Below, piece after piece: positions 55 through 6,882 of a stretch of 7,872 nucleotides of DNA. Origin of the DNA: an uncultured Thermoproteales archaeon. Its GTDB lineage: Archaea; Thermoproteota; Thermoprotei; Thermoproteales; Thermoproteaceae. Positions within the stretch are counted from its first letter, which is position 1. Each line of letters begins with the position of its first letter. The notes beneath the pieces were generated by a model that saw only the letters and a program-made list of their open reading frames with translations, made no database searches and was not told where the DNA came from. Location: positions 1-7,872 of the forward strand of contig CAMLLK010000033.1 of NCBI GenBank assembly GCA_946480885.1, read 5' to 3'. The position numbers and the translations under genes are program-made.

Positions 55-380
55 ATAGACCTGAGTACGCCAGACTGACTCTGCCCAACGCCACCGCTGT
101 AAAATTTGCAGTACAGATAAACGCCAGAGAGTTATTGTTTAACTTCGTCCCTCTTAGATGTGCATACCCAGCCCAGGCGGAGATTAGACACGTCTGTTGG
201 CAAATCTACGCCCACGCCTGGAAGCTGTGGCCAACCCTGTCCAAACTAGTGTGGGAAGACCTACCACAGCTACATAGAGACTTCTGCACAGGCGTGCCAA
301 AAGGCGAAGACTGCCGCCTATACGCAATAAGAGACGCAGAAGAAAAACACGGCCCCCTCCCAGAGAGGCCGTGGCTATGA
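55..380 (+). CDS. thyX: Flavin-dependent thymidylate synthase ThyX, C-terminal part (5' end missing)
   Basis: ThyX converts dUMP to dTMP using methylene-tetrahydrofolate, FAD and NADPH, and replaces ThyA in many archaea. The reading frame is open from the first genomic bases (first full codon at 57) to TGA 378-380, giving about 107 residues. It begins RPEYARLTLPNATAVKF and continues with QINARELL, LRCAYPAQAEIR and a C-terminal helix. This matches the ThyX C-terminal half, where an N-R-x-L segment is followed by LR-C-x-x-AQ-x-EIR; the arginines there help bind dUMP and FAD in the tetramer. The N-terminal RHR-x7-S-x-R signature lies off the left edge. The loss is an assembly break at the adapter, not a biological truncation. 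A TTG at 135 could open a shorter frame, but the family similarity starts upstream of it, so it is not the start. The stop overlaps the next gene's ATG in an ATGA, implying translational coupling. ThyX identity is from motif recall only. Confidence 0.85.
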
Positions 381-1237
381 AAGTACTTATCAGAGGCCTA
401 GAGGCGGGCTCTGCATATCTAGCATATCTACTAAGAGAGAGTGGAGTCTATGTAGAAATACAAACAGCCAGTCTCCAAGACCCAGTACTCGACGTCCCCC
501 CCTTCGATCCGGTTTTTACACTAGACTTCCTCAAAGAGGTGTTGGGAGTTGTATTTGTAGAAAAACCCACAGGCAGCTACGACGCAGTAGTTGACTCATG
601 TGACATATTCAACTTAGGCGAGTTAAAAAAGGCGTTTGAAAAGAAAAAGCCAATATACGTCATTGGCGACGCTTGGCTATCGGCGTCTATATCGCTCTAC
701 CACGGACTGCCCGTGCCGGACGTAGACATAGACCTGCCCGTGGAGAAGACAGAAAGTTTTGAAGAAGTGAATATTATGTATAGGCTGTATGTGGGGGGCA
801 ACTACGCTATCTGTGGCAGTTTTAGAGACGGCTGGGGAGACTGTCTCTACACACCCATGAGAGCGTTTGAACGTATATTCACCGCGGTGGATATATACAG
901 CGCTTTGACGGGTCTAGAGCCGCCTAAGAGAAAACTAAAACTTGAATACGCAGTGGGGAGAGATACAGCCTATGTGACAATTGGCTGTAGGCCAGAGGGG
1001 AAAGCCTCTAAGATTAACCTAGAGAGAACTTCAGTGTGGCTATACAGCGAGGGCGGGCGGCCTAGCTACGTCTATATACAAACCCCAGTGGACGACTTAC
1101 AGTGGGCCTTCGCAATGTATAACTTAGCAAGATATACTGACTCCGCCTTTCTATTCGACATGGGGGTAGCCGGCAGAGGCCCCCTCAACATCGCCTATCT
1201 AGGACATCTATTTAGAGAAAAGAGAAAAAGTTTATAA
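377..1237 (+). CDS. Unrecognised protein with degenerate Rossmann-like N-terminus, coupled to thyX
   Basis: I do not recognise this 286-residue protein. ATG 377 is preferred over GTG 371 because it overlaps the thyX stop as ATGA and has a GAGAGG Shine-Dalgarno-like stretch at 363-368, 8 nt upstream; GTG 371 would leave only 2 nt. The N-terminus, MKVLIRGLEAGSAYLAYLL, reads as beta strand, glycine turn (G7, G11), helix, as in FAD or NAD(P)-binding folds, but the turn lacks the full GxGxxG. A later KPIYVIGDAWLSASISLYHG segment recalls the second FAD-binding GD motif of pyridine nucleotide-disulfide oxidoreductases, and the C-terminal third is rich in beta strands. No redox CxxC or CxxxxC pair is visible, and there is no signal peptide or membrane segment. 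A degenerate flavoprotein is therefore a weak inference. Co-translation with thyX, a flavin enzyme, is the only functional hint. It ends at TAA 1235-1237, inside the TATA box of the RNA candidate downstream. Confidence 0.8.
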   Translation: MKVLIRGLEAGSAYLAYLLRESGVYVEIQTASLQDPVLDVPPFDPVFTLDFLKEVLGVVFVEKPTGSYDAVVDSCDIFNLGELKKAFEKKKPIYVIGDAWLSASISLYHGLPVPDVDIDLPVEKTESFEEVNIMYRLYVGGNYAICGSFRDGWGDCLYTPMRAFERIFTAVDIYSALTGLEPPKRKLKLEYAVGRDTAYVTIGCRPEGKASKINLERTSVWLYSEGGRPSYVYIQTPVDDLQWAFAMYNLARYTDSAFLFDMGVAGRGPLNIAYLGHLFREKRKSL

Positions 1238-1240
1238 ATA
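1231..1240 (+). promoter_or_regulatory. TATA box for the RNA candidate at 1259-1320
   Basis: TTTATAAATA is a near-consensus archaeal TATA element, preceded by the purine-rich stretch AGAGAAAAAG, which suits a BRE. Its centre (about 1235) predicts transcription from about 1260, the first base pairs of the folded RNA. No plus-strand protein gene starts downstream for more than 600 bases, so the promoter is best explained by a non-coding transcript. It overlaps the stop codon of the upstream gene. Confidence 0.6.
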
Positions 1241-1258
1241 TGTATAGAAATAGGTCCA

Positions 1259-1320
1259 CCGCGACGGGTCGCAGAGAGCCGTAAAATACGGCCCTGTGAC
1301 GCGGCCTGACGGCGTCTGGG
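1259..1320 (+). ncRNA. Candidate structured small RNA, family unknown
   Basis: This stretch between two convergent genes is about two-thirds G+C, well above its surroundings, a known mark of RNA genes in hyperthermophiles. It can fold into one long hairpin: CCGCG 1259-1263 with CGCGG 1300-1304, TCGCAG 1269-1274 with CTGTGA 1294-1299 (one G-U pair), and GCCGTA 1278-1283 with TACGGC 1287-1292 closing an AAA loop. This leaves a 5-nt bulge (1264-1268) and an AGA/C internal loop. An alternative is a series of small hairpins, including GCGA/TCGC at 1261-1272 and GAC/GTC at 1308-1316. A TATA box lies 25 nt upstream and T-rich sequence follows at 1321. I see no C/D boxes with guide spacing, no ACA tail, no tRNA arms, and no RNase P or SRP core. 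An atypical H/ACA-like guide, a family known from Pyrobaculum, is possible but unproven. It could also be a 3'-end structure shared by the two converging mRNAs. Confidence 0.5.
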
Positions 1321-1330
1321 TTATTGTTTT
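1321..1330 (+). terminator. Possible T-rich terminator after the RNA candidate
   Basis: TTATTGTTTT directly follows the GC-rich folded stretch. Archaeal RNA polymerase stops at T-rich runs, so this could end the plus-strand RNA at about 1320-1330. The run is short and interrupted, and it also encodes the last codons of the minus-strand eL15 gene, so support is weak. Confidence 0.3.
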
Positions 1331-1881
1331 AACTTCGGCAAAAGCGTTTTCTTTAAATATTCAATAACTTTTCTCTGCCTCTTTCTTAACCTCCTCATAA
1401 TCCTCCTCCTAGGCACTTCACTGCCACATATCTGCAAGTATAACTGGTCGCCTCTCACAGAGGGGTGGTTGCAGTCGATTAGAATTACTTCAAAATAGCG
1501 ATAGATGCCGTCGTCGGCTACCCAATAGCTATTGAGAACCTCTAGACCTGGGAACTTTCTAGCAGCTCTCTCCTCTGCCACTTGACGCCACGACTTCCAC
1601 GCAGTTATTCCATAGACGCCCATCCTCTTAGGTCTCCTACCCGAGTCAGGCCTCCGACGGTTAAAGGGACCTCTCGCCACCCTAACTCTCACAACCACTA
1701 CCCCTTGTTTCGCCTTGTATCCCAACTTTCTAGCTTTTTCAAGACGGAACGGTCTCTCTACTCTAACAACCGATGGAGATCGCCTCCACTCTATCAAAAC
1801 TTTTCTCATCAACTCTTCGTGGATAGGCCTCCCGTTTTTTCTATACCACATAGCCATGTATTTATAAGCCGAAGGCGCCAT
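1321..1881 (-). CDS. rpl15e: 50S ribosomal protein eL15 (L15e)
   Basis: eL15 is a basic protein of the archaeal and eukaryotic large subunit, absent from bacteria. The 186-residue protein starts MAPSAYKYMAMWYRKNG, aligning with the family's AYKYI..LW start, which supports ATG 1881. Further family blocks follow: WRRSP..VRVERPFRLEKA (about 32-50), ARKLGYKAKQGVVVVRVRV (about 50-68), a GRRPKRMGVYG segment (about 81-91), AEERAARKFPGLEVLNSYWV (about 102-121) and YRYFEVILID (about 127-136). The first 145 residues look canonical, while the C-terminus is unusual: it lacks the usual RGLTSAG...RGLR segment and has a very basic RRRIMRRLRKRQRK stretch and a helix instead. The gene ends where the RNA candidate ends and is divergent from the COG1325/RNase P operon, with which eL15 is often clustered in archaea. 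It is probably leaderless: a TATA element is centred 25 nt upstream of the ATG. Confidence 0.93.
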   Translation of the reverse strand: MAPSAYKYMAMWYRKNGRPIHEELMRKVLIEWRRSPSVVRVERPFRLEKARKLGYKAKQGVVVVRVRVARGPFNRRRPDSGRRPKRMGVYGITAWKSWRQVAEERAARKFPGLEVLNSYWVADDGIYRYFEVILIDCNHPSVRGDQLYLQICGSEVPRRRIMRRLRKRQRKVIEYLKKTLLPKLKQ

Positions 1882-2273: not shown

Positions 2274-2778
2274 AAAGGGGTTTGTAGAGTGGGATCTCGT
2301 AGTAGTAAGTCTAGAGACAGAGGCGTCTCTGTGGGAAGTGGGAGTCCGAGCTGCAGTGTTGAGAAAAGAGGCTGAGACTTGTCTCCTTGCCCCCTTTGTG
2401 CGTGGCGTAGATATAAAGTGGGCAGAGGCCTTCAATAGAGAGATGTTTAATAAATTGGTATATAGAGACGCCCAAGTCATTAGAGTAGACCCACGGGTAA
2501 TAATTACACGAGACCAAGTCAAGACTGCGATGAGGCGAGGCGTGTATATAGAGTTGTCTCTCAAAACGCTTATAAAAGACCTACCCCTCCTTAAAGAGTG
2601 GTTAGAGGTGTTAGAGCCAGAGGCTGTGATCTTCTCCACGTCAGTAGAGACTCCACTAGACGTAAAGTCGCCGCTTGACCTCACGGCTTTGTTAGTAGAA
2701 ATCAGCGGAGATAAAAGTTGGGCGGCGCCTATATTAAAGTCTTTAGATATACTCGTAGAACTAGTTGTTAGTAAATGA
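2263..2778 (+). CDS. rnp3: RNase P protein component 3 (Rpp30)
   Basis: Rpp30 pairs with Pop5 and activates the catalytic domain of the RNase P RNA, which removes 5' leaders from pre-tRNAs. The match is clearest in the C-terminal half of this 171-residue protein. [10 protein letters not shown] corresponds to the family's strand ending in FSLRPLL, and [23 protein letters not shown] corresponds to the ...TSSA...WDVRYPRDLISL block, followed by a final helix like that of the Pyrococcus protein. The N-terminal half is weakly conserved. The protein is some 40 residues shorter than Pyrococcus Rpp30; much of the deficit falls where the long helix after the FSLRPLL strand should be. It overlaps the upstream gene by 11 bp and the Pop5 gene by ATGA, so the three are probably one transcript. 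Gene order supports the call; from sequence alone it would be moderate. Confidence 0.85.
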
Positions 2779-3074
2779 GGTATTTAGTTATTAGGGCTGT
2801 AGACCCAGTGTCATGTTATATAAAGTTTTTAGAAAAATATATACTAGTCGGCATCTCCTCTTTAATAAATCCGCCGAAGTTTGTAGCTATATACGACGAC
2901 GTGTTGATAATTGGTGTGACTAAAGAAGTCGTCAAGACGGCTAGGGCTGTGGTGGCTCTACTAGACGGCTGTAGAGTAGTGAAGATATTGGGCACTTCTA
3001 AAAGAGCTAAGGCTGTGGCTGCGTCTATTAGAAAATTAGAAAATTATATATCTCAGACGCCATGTAAAACGTGA
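2775..3074 (+). CDS. rnp2: RNase P protein component 2 (Pop5/Rpp14 family)
   Basis: Pop5 is the partner of Rpp30 in archaeal RNase P. The 99-residue protein opens with RYLVIRAV, matching the family's N-terminal RYIAFEV strand. It continues with [47 protein letters not shown], which follows Pop5's order of a GIIR strand, a long VRAAL helix, a strand and the VSGTIKKA turn. Here the usual SGT turn is replaced by GTSKRAKA. The protein is about 20 residues shorter than Pyrococcus Pop5, mainly at the N-terminus. The ATG overlaps the rnp3 stop (ATGA), implying coupled translation of the two partners. Its stop TGA 3072-3074 lies inside the C box of the downstream guide RNA, and a TATA box for that RNA lies in its last codons. 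Confidence 0.85.
3041..3050 (+). promoter_or_regulatory. TATA box for the box C/D sRNA
   Basis: AAATTATATA lies inside the end of the Pop5 gene, after a purine-rich stretch (TTAGAAAATTAGA). Its centre, about 3046, predicts a start at about 3070-3071, the first base of the C box. The sRNA could therefore be made independently of the operon, although processing from read-through mRNA is also possible. Confidence 0.5.
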
Positions 3075-3122
3075 TGATGGGTATCAAAGTATTGACTTGT
3101 GATAGCCTCGCGACGGACTGAT
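3070..3122 (+). ncRNA. Box C/D guide sRNA
   Basis: Archaeal C/D sRNAs guide 2'-O-methylation by fibrillarin with Nop5 and L7Ae. All four boxes are in order: C box GTGATGA 3071-3077 (perfect RUGAUGA), D' box TTGA 3092-3095 (one change from CUGA), C' box GTGATAG 3099-3105 (relaxed), D box CTGA 3118-3121 (perfect). The guides are 14 nt (3078-3091) and about 12 nt (3106-3117), with a 3-nt D'-C' spacer, the compact form of hyperthermophiles. By the N-plus-5 rule the D guide pairs a U in CCGUCG(C/U)GAG. From memory this resembles conserved 23S rRNA near the peptidyl transferase centre, around E. coli position 2593. The D' guide would target UACUUUGAUACCCA; its GAUACCC core resembles the conserved 16S GAUACCC segment, but this is weak. 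The C box contains the Pop5 stop codon, and the D box touches the end of the convergent ligase gene. Confidence 0.85.
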
Positions 3123-4018
3123 CAACGTCTTAATTTCTCCAATAAATAGTCAATTATATACTCGGCTGGGTTTATGCCAGTGGCCAACTTAAACCCTTGC
3201 CAACTCATAGTGGGGTTCACCTCCAGTACGTAATAGCCCTCTGGCGTCTCAGCCACGTCGACGCCCCCATAGTCAAGGCCAAGCGTCTCCACAGCCCGCA
3301 CTGCAAGTTCTTCCAGCTCAGGCGTCAATTTAGCCGCCTCCGGCCTGGCGCCTTGTGCCACATTAGTCTTCCAACTCTCCCCCCTTCTATACTCAGCCCC
3401 AATGGCGCGGCCCCCCACTACAACTACTCTATAGTCTCCACTCCCCTTTTCTAAATATTTCTGTACATACAGCGGCTTGTTTATATTTATCAACATAGAA
3501 AATATGTGGAAAGCTACGTCGGGGTTGTCTACTAAAAACACGCCGTATCCCATAGCCCCTCTCAGTTGTTTAACTACAGACTTGCCCCACTCAGCTATTG
3601 CTCTATAGCCGGCGAACATATTCTCAGTCACTATTGTGGGAGGCACCGGTAGGCCGGCCTTTGCTAATTTTATCAAAGCGGCCATTTTGTCTCCCGCCGC
3701 CACCCACCGCTCTACTGGATTCATGACGTATATCCCCACTTCCTCTACCGCCTTGACGGCCCAGACTCTGTAGAGAAACTGTTCAAAATCTCTAAAAATG
3801 CCTAGATGTCTTAAAACTGCGCCGGGGACGTCCACCGGCGCCGGGGGGCCTCTGCCGATTGACTGTCTAACTCTTACCCCTCCGCCGATATGTATTTCTA
3901 ACATGTCGACGTATATCCTCGTCGGCGTGTGTCCCCTTTTCACAATTGCCTCCTCTAGATCAGCCACGTCGCCTGGGTTAAACTCTACTTCATACGGCCT
4001 AATAATACCTATTTTCAT
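3122..4018 (-). CDS. RimK-family ATP-grasp ligase, substrate unknown
   Basis: ATP-grasp ligases of this type activate a carboxylate as acyl-phosphate and join it to an amine, for example adding glutamate to a cofactor or protein. The 298-residue length fits RimK, LysX, MptN and CofF. Visible features: an N-terminal preATP-grasp domain (MKIGIIRPYE onward), NPVERWVAAGDKMAALIKLAKAGLPVP (100-126), the ATP-binding K150, a glycine-rich loop RGAMGYGVFLV (153-163), hinge YVQKYLE (184-190), DYRVVVVGG (195-203), substrate-side WKTNVAQGA (216-224), and metal ligands D254, E266 and N268 in a VLEVNPTMSWQGF block. All catalytic positions appear intact. It is not clearly LysX: no LysW or lysine genes are nearby, and the end resembles RimK/MptN proteins more. 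Its ATG overlaps the stop of the upstream Cys-rich protein by ATGA, so the two are co-translated. That protein may be a partner or substrate, which is inference. Confidence 0.88.
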   Translation of the reverse strand: MKIGIIRPYEVEFNPGDVADLEEAIVKRGHTPTRIYVDMLEIHIGGGVRVRQSIGRGPPAPVDVPGAVLRHLGIFRDFEQFLYRVWAVKAVEEVGIYVMNPVERWVAAGDKMAALIKLAKAGLPVPPTIVTENMFAGYRAIAEWGKSVVKQLRGAMGYGVFLVDNPDVAFHIFSMLININKPLYVQKYLEKGSGDYRVVVVGGRAIGAEYRRGESWKTNVAQGARPEAAKLTPELEELAVRAVETLGLDYGGVDVAETPEGYYVLEVNPTMSWQGFKLATGINPAEYIIDYLLEKLRR

Positions 4019-6129: not shown

Positions 6130-6882
6130 ATGCACAGACTTGAAGTAAAAGATCTTAAAGTCGCCGTGGCGGGTAGAGAGATATTAAAGGGAGTCTCTAT
6201 CTCAGTGAAAAGCGGCGAAATTGTTGTATTAATGGGGCCCAACGGCAGTGGAAAGTCGACACTCTTCCAAGCAATTGCTGGAAATCCCAAGTACGAAATC
6301 CTAGGCGGGGATATACTACTAGACGGAGAGTCTATCTTATCCCTCTCCCCCGAGGAGCGGTTTGCAAAAGGCATATTCGTAGGCTTTCAATCTCCCGTGG
6401 CTGTGCCAGAGGTAAGATTCGCCTTTCTACTACAAGCTATGATGAACATCAAAGCTGGGAGAAAACTAACAGACCCAAATCCACAAATTCTTTCACAAGC
6501 CCAGAGGATAGCCACAGACTTAGGACTTCGTCTAGAGGTATTCAACCGCGGAGTGGGGGCCGGCTTCAGCGGAGGCGAATTTAAAAGAGCAGAAGTCCTA
6601 CAAGCACTTCTACTAAACCCAAGGTTTGTAATTCTAGATGAGCCAGATAGCGGTCTCGACATCGACGGAATTGCGGCAGTGGGGAGGGCAATTACAAAAC
6701 TCAGCTCCACCGGCTCCGGCGTCCTTATATCTACACACTACGCCAGAGTTTTGAATTTTGTAAAACCCACAAGAGTTTATGTAATTGCAGAGGGGCGCGT
6801 CGTATTAGAAGGCGATGAGAGTATTGTAAAAAAGATAGAGGAGGTGGGTTATCAAAACTACCTACAGTCAGTTGGCTCCTAA
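6130..6882 (+). CDS. sufC: Fe-S cluster assembly ATPase SufC
   Basis: SufC is the soluble ABC-type ATPase that binds SufB (and SufD) and drives the conformational change needed for cluster assembly; it is not a transporter. The 250-residue length is typical. Motifs in order: Walker A GPNGSGKST (36-44, K42), Q-loop in VGFQSPVAVPEV (Q87), a PxIP-like segment characteristic of SufC; ABC signature FSGGEFKRAEV (146-156); Walker B FVILDEPDSGLD (166-177, catalytic E171); switch histidine in ISTHY (H203). The SGGE-KR form of the signature is the SufC hallmark. There are no membrane segments. ATG 6130 follows a TATA-like element by about 24 nt, so the mRNA is likely leaderless. It is divergent from sufB, its obligate partner, with which it may share one promoter element. 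A short T-rich run (CCCCTTTTACC, about 6894-6904) after the stop may be a weak terminator. No sufD or cysteine desulfurase follows. Confidence 0.96.
   Translation: MHRLEVKDLKVAVAGREILKGVSISVKSGEIVVLMGPNGSGKSTLFQAIAGNPKYEILGGDILLDGESILSLSPEERFAKGIFVGFQSPVAVPEVRFAFLLQAMMNIKAGRKLTDPNPQILSQAQRIATDLGLRLEVFNRGVGAGFSGGEFKRAEVLQALLLNPRFVILDEPDSGLDIDGIAAVGRAITKLSSTGSGVLISTHYARVLNFVKPTRVYVIAEGRVVLEGDESIVKKIEEVGYQNYLQSVGS

Follow-up and report, generated by a model that had tools for sequence, protein, structure and literature searches.

Gene neighborhood and features of the RNA locus

The window, i.e., the whole stretch of 7,872 nucleotides analyzed here, begins at an uncleaned contig end, with positions 1-54 holding a poly-C run followed by adapter sequence, which we take to be that of Illumina TruSeq read 1. 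Further in, a gap holding a candidate RNA lies between two convergent genes, namely an ORF on the forward strand (371-1237) and the gene for the ribosomal protein L15e on the reverse strand (1321-1881), both of which remain open up to their junctions with the RNA. The initial annotation had described a GC-rich hairpin between convergent genes at this point, and the sequence is as it stated. The features of the locus are listed below, where A1 denotes the alignment of the window RNA with nine relatives of the same type (type A, see below); the ends of the RNA, 1255 and 1320, were placed by conservation.

371..1237, + strand: gene for a conserved protein, co-directional neighbor of the RNA; no Pfam match
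1228..1320, + strand: promoter-plus-RNA cassette, apparently inverted in place relative to 9 relatives; boundaries approximate
1231..1239, + strand: TATA box TTTATAAAT, recognized by its sequence and by a register similar to that of the TATA-like elements before the orthologues
1255..1320, + strand: Pyrobac-1 RNA (type A), a likely H/ACA-like guide RNA gene; match to RF01722 over 1255-1315, with alignment A1 conserved to 1320
1259..1265, + strand: CCGCGAC, the predicted 5' guide; its complement GUCGCGG in the 23S rRNA lies two bases 3' of the uridine that aligns with E. coli U2457
1265..1272, + strand: lower (GA) stem, 5' strand, pairing with 1301-1308; Rfam match and covariation
1274..1277, + strand: GAGA, 5' side of a kink-turn-like motif, its first three letters invariant in 10/10 A1 rows
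1278..1292, + strand: apical stem-loop (1278-1283 / 1287-1292); Rfam match and covariation
1296..1299, + strand: GTGA, 3' side of the kink-turn-like motif, invariant in 10/10 A1 rows
1301..1308, + strand: lower stem, 3' strand; Rfam match and covariation
1308..1313, + strand: predicted 3' guide GACGGC, of which GACG is also found in three Thermoproteus-side relatives
1314..1320, + strand: conserved tail GTCTGGG, followed by an ACA/NCA box in the relatives and by TTATTG here
1321..1881, - strand: ribosomal protein L15e gene, convergent neighbor of the RNA; PF00827, 189.1 bits

The strong TATA box that had been reported before the hairpin is indeed present; it starts 24 nt upstream of the RNA, contains the stop codon of the ORF 371-1237 and shares its register with the relatives, as a TATA-like element is found upstream of all 10 type A copies at a distance that varies by about 4 nt (read by eye). 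The RNA is probably transcribed from a TATA promoter of its own. The T-rich sequence after the hairpin is likewise there. It is the antisense of the L15e gene end, however, and nothing in the relatives clearly corresponds to it, so that its reading as a terminator is weak.

Elsewhere in the window we observed a candidate box C/D sRNA (3071-3121, + strand) between an ORF at 2775-3074 and a RimK-like ORF at 3122-4018. Its motifs are presumably a C box GTGATGA, a C' box TGTGATA and a D box CTGA. It matches the Rfam sR5 model at 21.2 bits, below the cut-off of 40, and its D guide pairs with the 23S rRNA over 10 consecutive bases. A near-identical RNA is found in L001 and a variant in L002, close to the same genes.

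Membership in the Pyrobac-1 family and distribution of its two types

A cmscan search of the whole window returned three matches up to an E-value of 1, one of which lies above its own curated cut-off. This is a match to RF01722 (Pyrobac-1) on the + strand (1255-1315), with 52.9 bits against a gathering score of 40. Pyrobac-1 is tabulated as a Pyrobaculum motif by Weinberg et al. 2010 (PMC2864571, from the available part of that text). The description of the RNA as uncatalogued therefore has to be withdrawn. RF02802 (PyrR204, typed as an H/ACA box RNA) overlaps the Pyrobac-1 match weakly, with 21.4 bits against a gathering score of 71.

We used L15e to reach relatives of this locus and then searched 19 genomes of the family with RF01722. 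Nine of the 19 carry two copies each over the cut-off, one of type A and one of type B (18 matches), and two further genomes have one weak match each. Type A adjoins an orthologue of the ORF 371-1237 (61-67% identical) in all nine genomes and L15e in eight, no L15e being found in the 3 kb locus of the ninth (G021). The type B copies sit at other loci (L081, L086, L087, L093, L095-L097, L099 and L100) and have guides other than those of type A, with the 5' guide CCGGGACTA. In a tree of SufB, the window falls into a clade of 11 rows (97/96). Three of the other ten bear the name Pyrobaculum (G001-G003); altogether, these ten rows are the nine type A genomes and G004, which groups weakly with the window as its nearest row (86/89).

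A type A model built from A1 recovered three full-length Thermoproteus-side relatives among the 19 family genomes (G007, 41.7 bits; G028, 39 bits; G026, 33.2 bits). As read by eye, the stem is preceded by GCGAC and followed by GACG in these relatives, and the box at position 15 is ACA or AUA; neither neighbor gene was found within their 3 kb loci (L153, L154 and L155). These type A relatives extend the family beyond Pyrobaculum. The same model, run with stricter filters, gave no match in 26 further genomes of the order. Weaker matches were not counted as relatives (G021, 31.0 bits; G024, 26.7 bits, and G029, 24.2 bits, the latter two partial); the one in G021 (L157) is full-length but has different guide sequences, and is perhaps a third paralogue. 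In L005 (~6560-6620), a shortened, degenerate-looking type A copy lies after L15e and retains the tail GGTGTCTGGACA; it was missed by both RF01722 and the type A model.

Conserved structure of the RNA

Folded in isolation, the RNA reaches -31.5 kcal/mol (z -2.03), with 5 of 200 shuffles as low. This is only mildly unusual, and the case for an RNA consequently rests on comparison. We used the 10 sequences of A1 for this purpose, leaving the three Thermoproteus-side relatives out of the covariation count. Of the hairpin of up to 17 bp (5+6+6) initially proposed, the hairpin stands and the length does not: comparison backs a stem of 8 + 6 bp, in which an A.C mismatch follows the first 8 pairs. 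In shuffles that ignore the relatedness of the sequences, the observed pairing (97.1% of 138 cells) was never reached (0/500), both-side changes in 6 of the 14 stem pairs were equalled in 3/500 trials, and the covariation score of 0.332 was not attained (0/500; shuffled mean 0.198 +/- 0.026). In the count of further pair types, the alignment does not stand out from the shuffles (13 vs 11.8, 150/500). When the partners are slid by 1-3 columns, the covariation score is at most 0.078. Conservation and covariation across the relatives in A1 therefore favor an RNA.

The invariance of GAG and GUGA at the internal loop is as expected of a kink-turn, and we infer that GAGA/GUGA would fold into one. 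RNAalifold additionally proposes four lower-stem pairs (8-64, 9-63, 10-62 and 11-60 of A1), which would use up the guides; none of these is changed on both sides, and three of them fail to pair in one sequence.

Very probably, the hairpin is a genuine gene for a small RNA of the catalogued archaeal family Pyrobac-1: the earlier proposal that an RNA gene lies here under a promoter of its own has good support from the membership in RF01722, the covarying structure and the register of the TATA box. A hairpin placed between two convergent stop codons with a T-rich stretch after it might instead be a regulatory element of the neighboring mRNAs, such as a 3' UTR hairpin or a terminator common to the two genes. 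We consider this scarcely credible, given the TATA-like element upstream of each of the 10 type A copies, the opposite orientation of the same RNA here, the conservation of sequence on both sides beyond the stem, and the three Thermoproteus-side relatives, in whose 3 kb loci neither neighbor gene is found.

As to function, this small RNA is likely an H/ACA-like pseudouridine guide RNA of the Pyrobac-1 family, type A. The suggestion of an atypical guide RNA turns out to be the best functional reading, in the form of an H/ACA-like single hairpin that probably has no lower stem below the pocket. The available text of PMC4652768 treats H/ACA-like guides lacking a lower stem as an established class in Pyrobaculum, and nine annotated H/ACA-like sRNAs of P. 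oguniense are reported as transcriptionally validated in the accessible part of PMC3558965.

Predicted target of the type A guide

In the proposed mechanism, L7Ae would bind the kink-turn (GAGA/GUGA), and Cbf5, Nop10 and Gar1 would bind the hairpin. The single strands flanking the stem would pair with the 23S rRNA, the 5' guide CCGCGAC with GUCGCGG and the 3' guide GACGG(U/C) with (A)CCGGC, with one A.G mismatch. This would present the uridine that aligns with E. coli 23S U2457 (position 2579 of the 23S in L102) for conversion to pseudouridine; the portion of PMC11925731 available mentions psi2457 among the known pseudouridine sites of E. coli. The outermost stem pair 1265-1308 would need opening for this target, and would serve as guide. 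Given an H/ACA-like guide of the Pyrobac-1 family, we put the chance that the U2457-aligned uridine is its target at about even.

Target scans with a sliding junction gave many mutually inconsistent matches in the GC-rich rRNA and were replaced by a fixed geometry. An rRNA alignment for column-wise sums was dropped because it was far too wide; the sums are keyed on identical rRNA context and hence favor invariant rRNA sites. The fixed-geometry scan covered the LSU rRNA of 11 genomes and the SSU rRNA of 5, the broken SSU of G025 being left out of this and the type B scan, and G002 being in no target scan. The U2457-aligned site reached -159.8 kcal/mol summed over 8 of the 11 genomes, with the next site at -26.0; the other three (G001, G026 and G028) do not pass the -3 kcal/mol threshold. 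Among column-shuffled guide sets, 2 of 400 match this sum, a figure that is not corrected for the choice of the geometry after a looser scan, and when the 3' guide alone is shuffled, 43 of 200 trials do as well at this site. The looser fixed version, in which one guide base can be skipped, was run on 8 genomes and gave -139.9 vs -106.6 for a 16S site, with 2 of 60 shuffles as good. Across 20 neighboring geometries, a scan to which G001 contributes nothing because its 3' register was set on the wrong GACG, the U2457-aligned site was the best of all (best other, -116.1). The guides of the window RNA itself pair at this site in 8 of 8 rRNA sets. The prediction of U2457 is carried mainly by the 5' guide and by the geometry chosen after the looser scan.

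A different target for the same Pyrobac-1 H/ACA-like RNA, whether elsewhere in rRNA, in a tRNA or in an mRNA, has in our judgment somewhat less than an even chance; as this is a variant of the best explanation, the two estimates overlap. In all genomes, an A.G mismatch occupies the second position of the 3' guide, and this, along with the weak result of shuffling that guide, points in this direction, as does the 5' guide of G023, which has diverged (5' duplex -3.2). Further, the available text of PMC4652768 proposes extra-ribosomal targets for such guides. Against this, no other rRNA uridine comes near in the fixed-geometry sum or in 19 neighboring geometries. Sites of the form CCGTCTNGTCGC, which fit both guide cores perfectly, occur in 6 of 6 genomes, but among these nine sites just two (L169 and L170) are alike in context.

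Separately, we observed that the tail GTCTGGG is complementary to CCCAGAC of the 23S rRNA over seven letters; two of the three Thermoproteus-side relatives are without this tail.

With the U2457-aligned uridine, the type A members gain a concrete predicted target in the peptidyl-transferase region of the 23S rRNA. For type B, a scan of the LSU of 8 genomes and the SSU of 7 pointed to a single uridine of the 16S rRNA, which aligns with E. coli position 799, in 7 of 7 SSU sets (-228.0 vs -100.1 for the next site, with 0 of 200 shuffles as good), using a geometry that differs by one base from that of type A and was chosen after seeing the site. RF01722 lumps two paralogous guides, types A and B, told apart by their sequences and neighbors. 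This suggests that the family should be split into two guides, one for 23S U2457 and one for 16S 799 (E. coli numbering).

Inverted orientation and absence of the ACA box

The RNA is convergent to the orthologue of the upstream gene in 9 of 9 type A relatives and co-directional with L15e in the 8 of 8 where that gene is in view. Its orientation in the window is reversed with respect to both neighbors, being co-directional with the ORF 371-1237 and convergent to L15e. To judge from the upstream elements, the promoter and the RNA appear to have moved together in this flip. The degenerate-looking copy in L005 has the usual orientation, not that of the window. G004, the nearest sampled relative, with a sequence of only 1.2 million bases, has no match to RF01722 or the type A model and therefore says nothing about the timing of the flip; a tRNA follows its L15e, and its upstream gene and L15e are on one strand. 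We also noted inverted repeat arms at 1226-1250 / 1348-1372 (80%, AT-rich) as a candidate cause, and set them aside since an exchange between them would be expected to turn the end of L15e as well, and that end is intact.

At the new junction the RNA runs directly into the stop codon of L15e. In the nine relatives the pocket is followed by a box: seven of them have ACA and one has TCA at position 15, while the ninth has CCA at 14. Within positions 11-20 after the pocket, the window RNA has no ANA or NCA box, NCA being a loose pattern.

The poly-C and Illumina adapter sequence at the start of the contig raises the question of an assembly artefact. We regard this as improbable: the promoter differs in sequence from those of the relatives yet its distance to the RNA is kept, both flanking genes are open up to the junctions, and the arms of the hairpin itself are short, at 12 nt (83%). 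It is also unlikely that the inverted copy is a guide in decay, or already dead, whose hairpin has survived by chance. In favor of this reading, the window copy has no ANA/NCA box whereas all nine type A relatives do, the RF01722 score of the window RNA is below that of 7 of the 9, and the degenerate copy in the same gap in L005, together with the lack of a match in G004, suggests that loss can happen. However, the window retains intact both guides, the stem with compensatory changes of its own, the promoter register and the kink-turn-like motif, and according to the available text of PMC4652768 an ANA or NCA box is absent from 14% of Pyrobaculum H/ACA-like motifs and hence is not obligatory.

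We tentatively propose, as a possible but doubtful scenario, that a working pseudouridine guide was flipped as a promoter-plus-RNA cassette within a single intergenic gap, that the ACA box was lost in forming the new junction, and that the RNA would still guide modification of 23S U2457. If this is true, the flipped copy would show, as a natural test, that the ACA box is dispensable to H/ACA-like RNPs of Pyrobaculum. More generally, this ACA-less copy offers a natural variant for asking what minimal RNA is needed by the Pyrobaculum pseudouridylation complex.

Comparison with known guide RNAs

The window RNA resembles RF01722 (Pyrobac-1) in its full-length match, its structure, its clade and the locus of the type A members. 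It differs from that family in lying on the opposite strand relative to both neighbors and in having no ACA-type box, and its guides fit only one of the two paralogous types. RF02802 (PyrR204) has the same architecture, although the score of the window RNA is far under the gathering score of that model. The Pyrobaculum RNAs sR203-sR210, as far as the available text of PMC4652768 describes them, resemble the window RNA in the hairpin with a kink-turn-like motif, in the two single-stranded guides, which are predicted here, and in the probable absence of a stable lower stem. In the type A relatives the ACA/NCA box lies 14-15 nt from the stem, which is the distance given in that text, and the window copy, being without this box, is like the minority of such motifs reported there to be without one.
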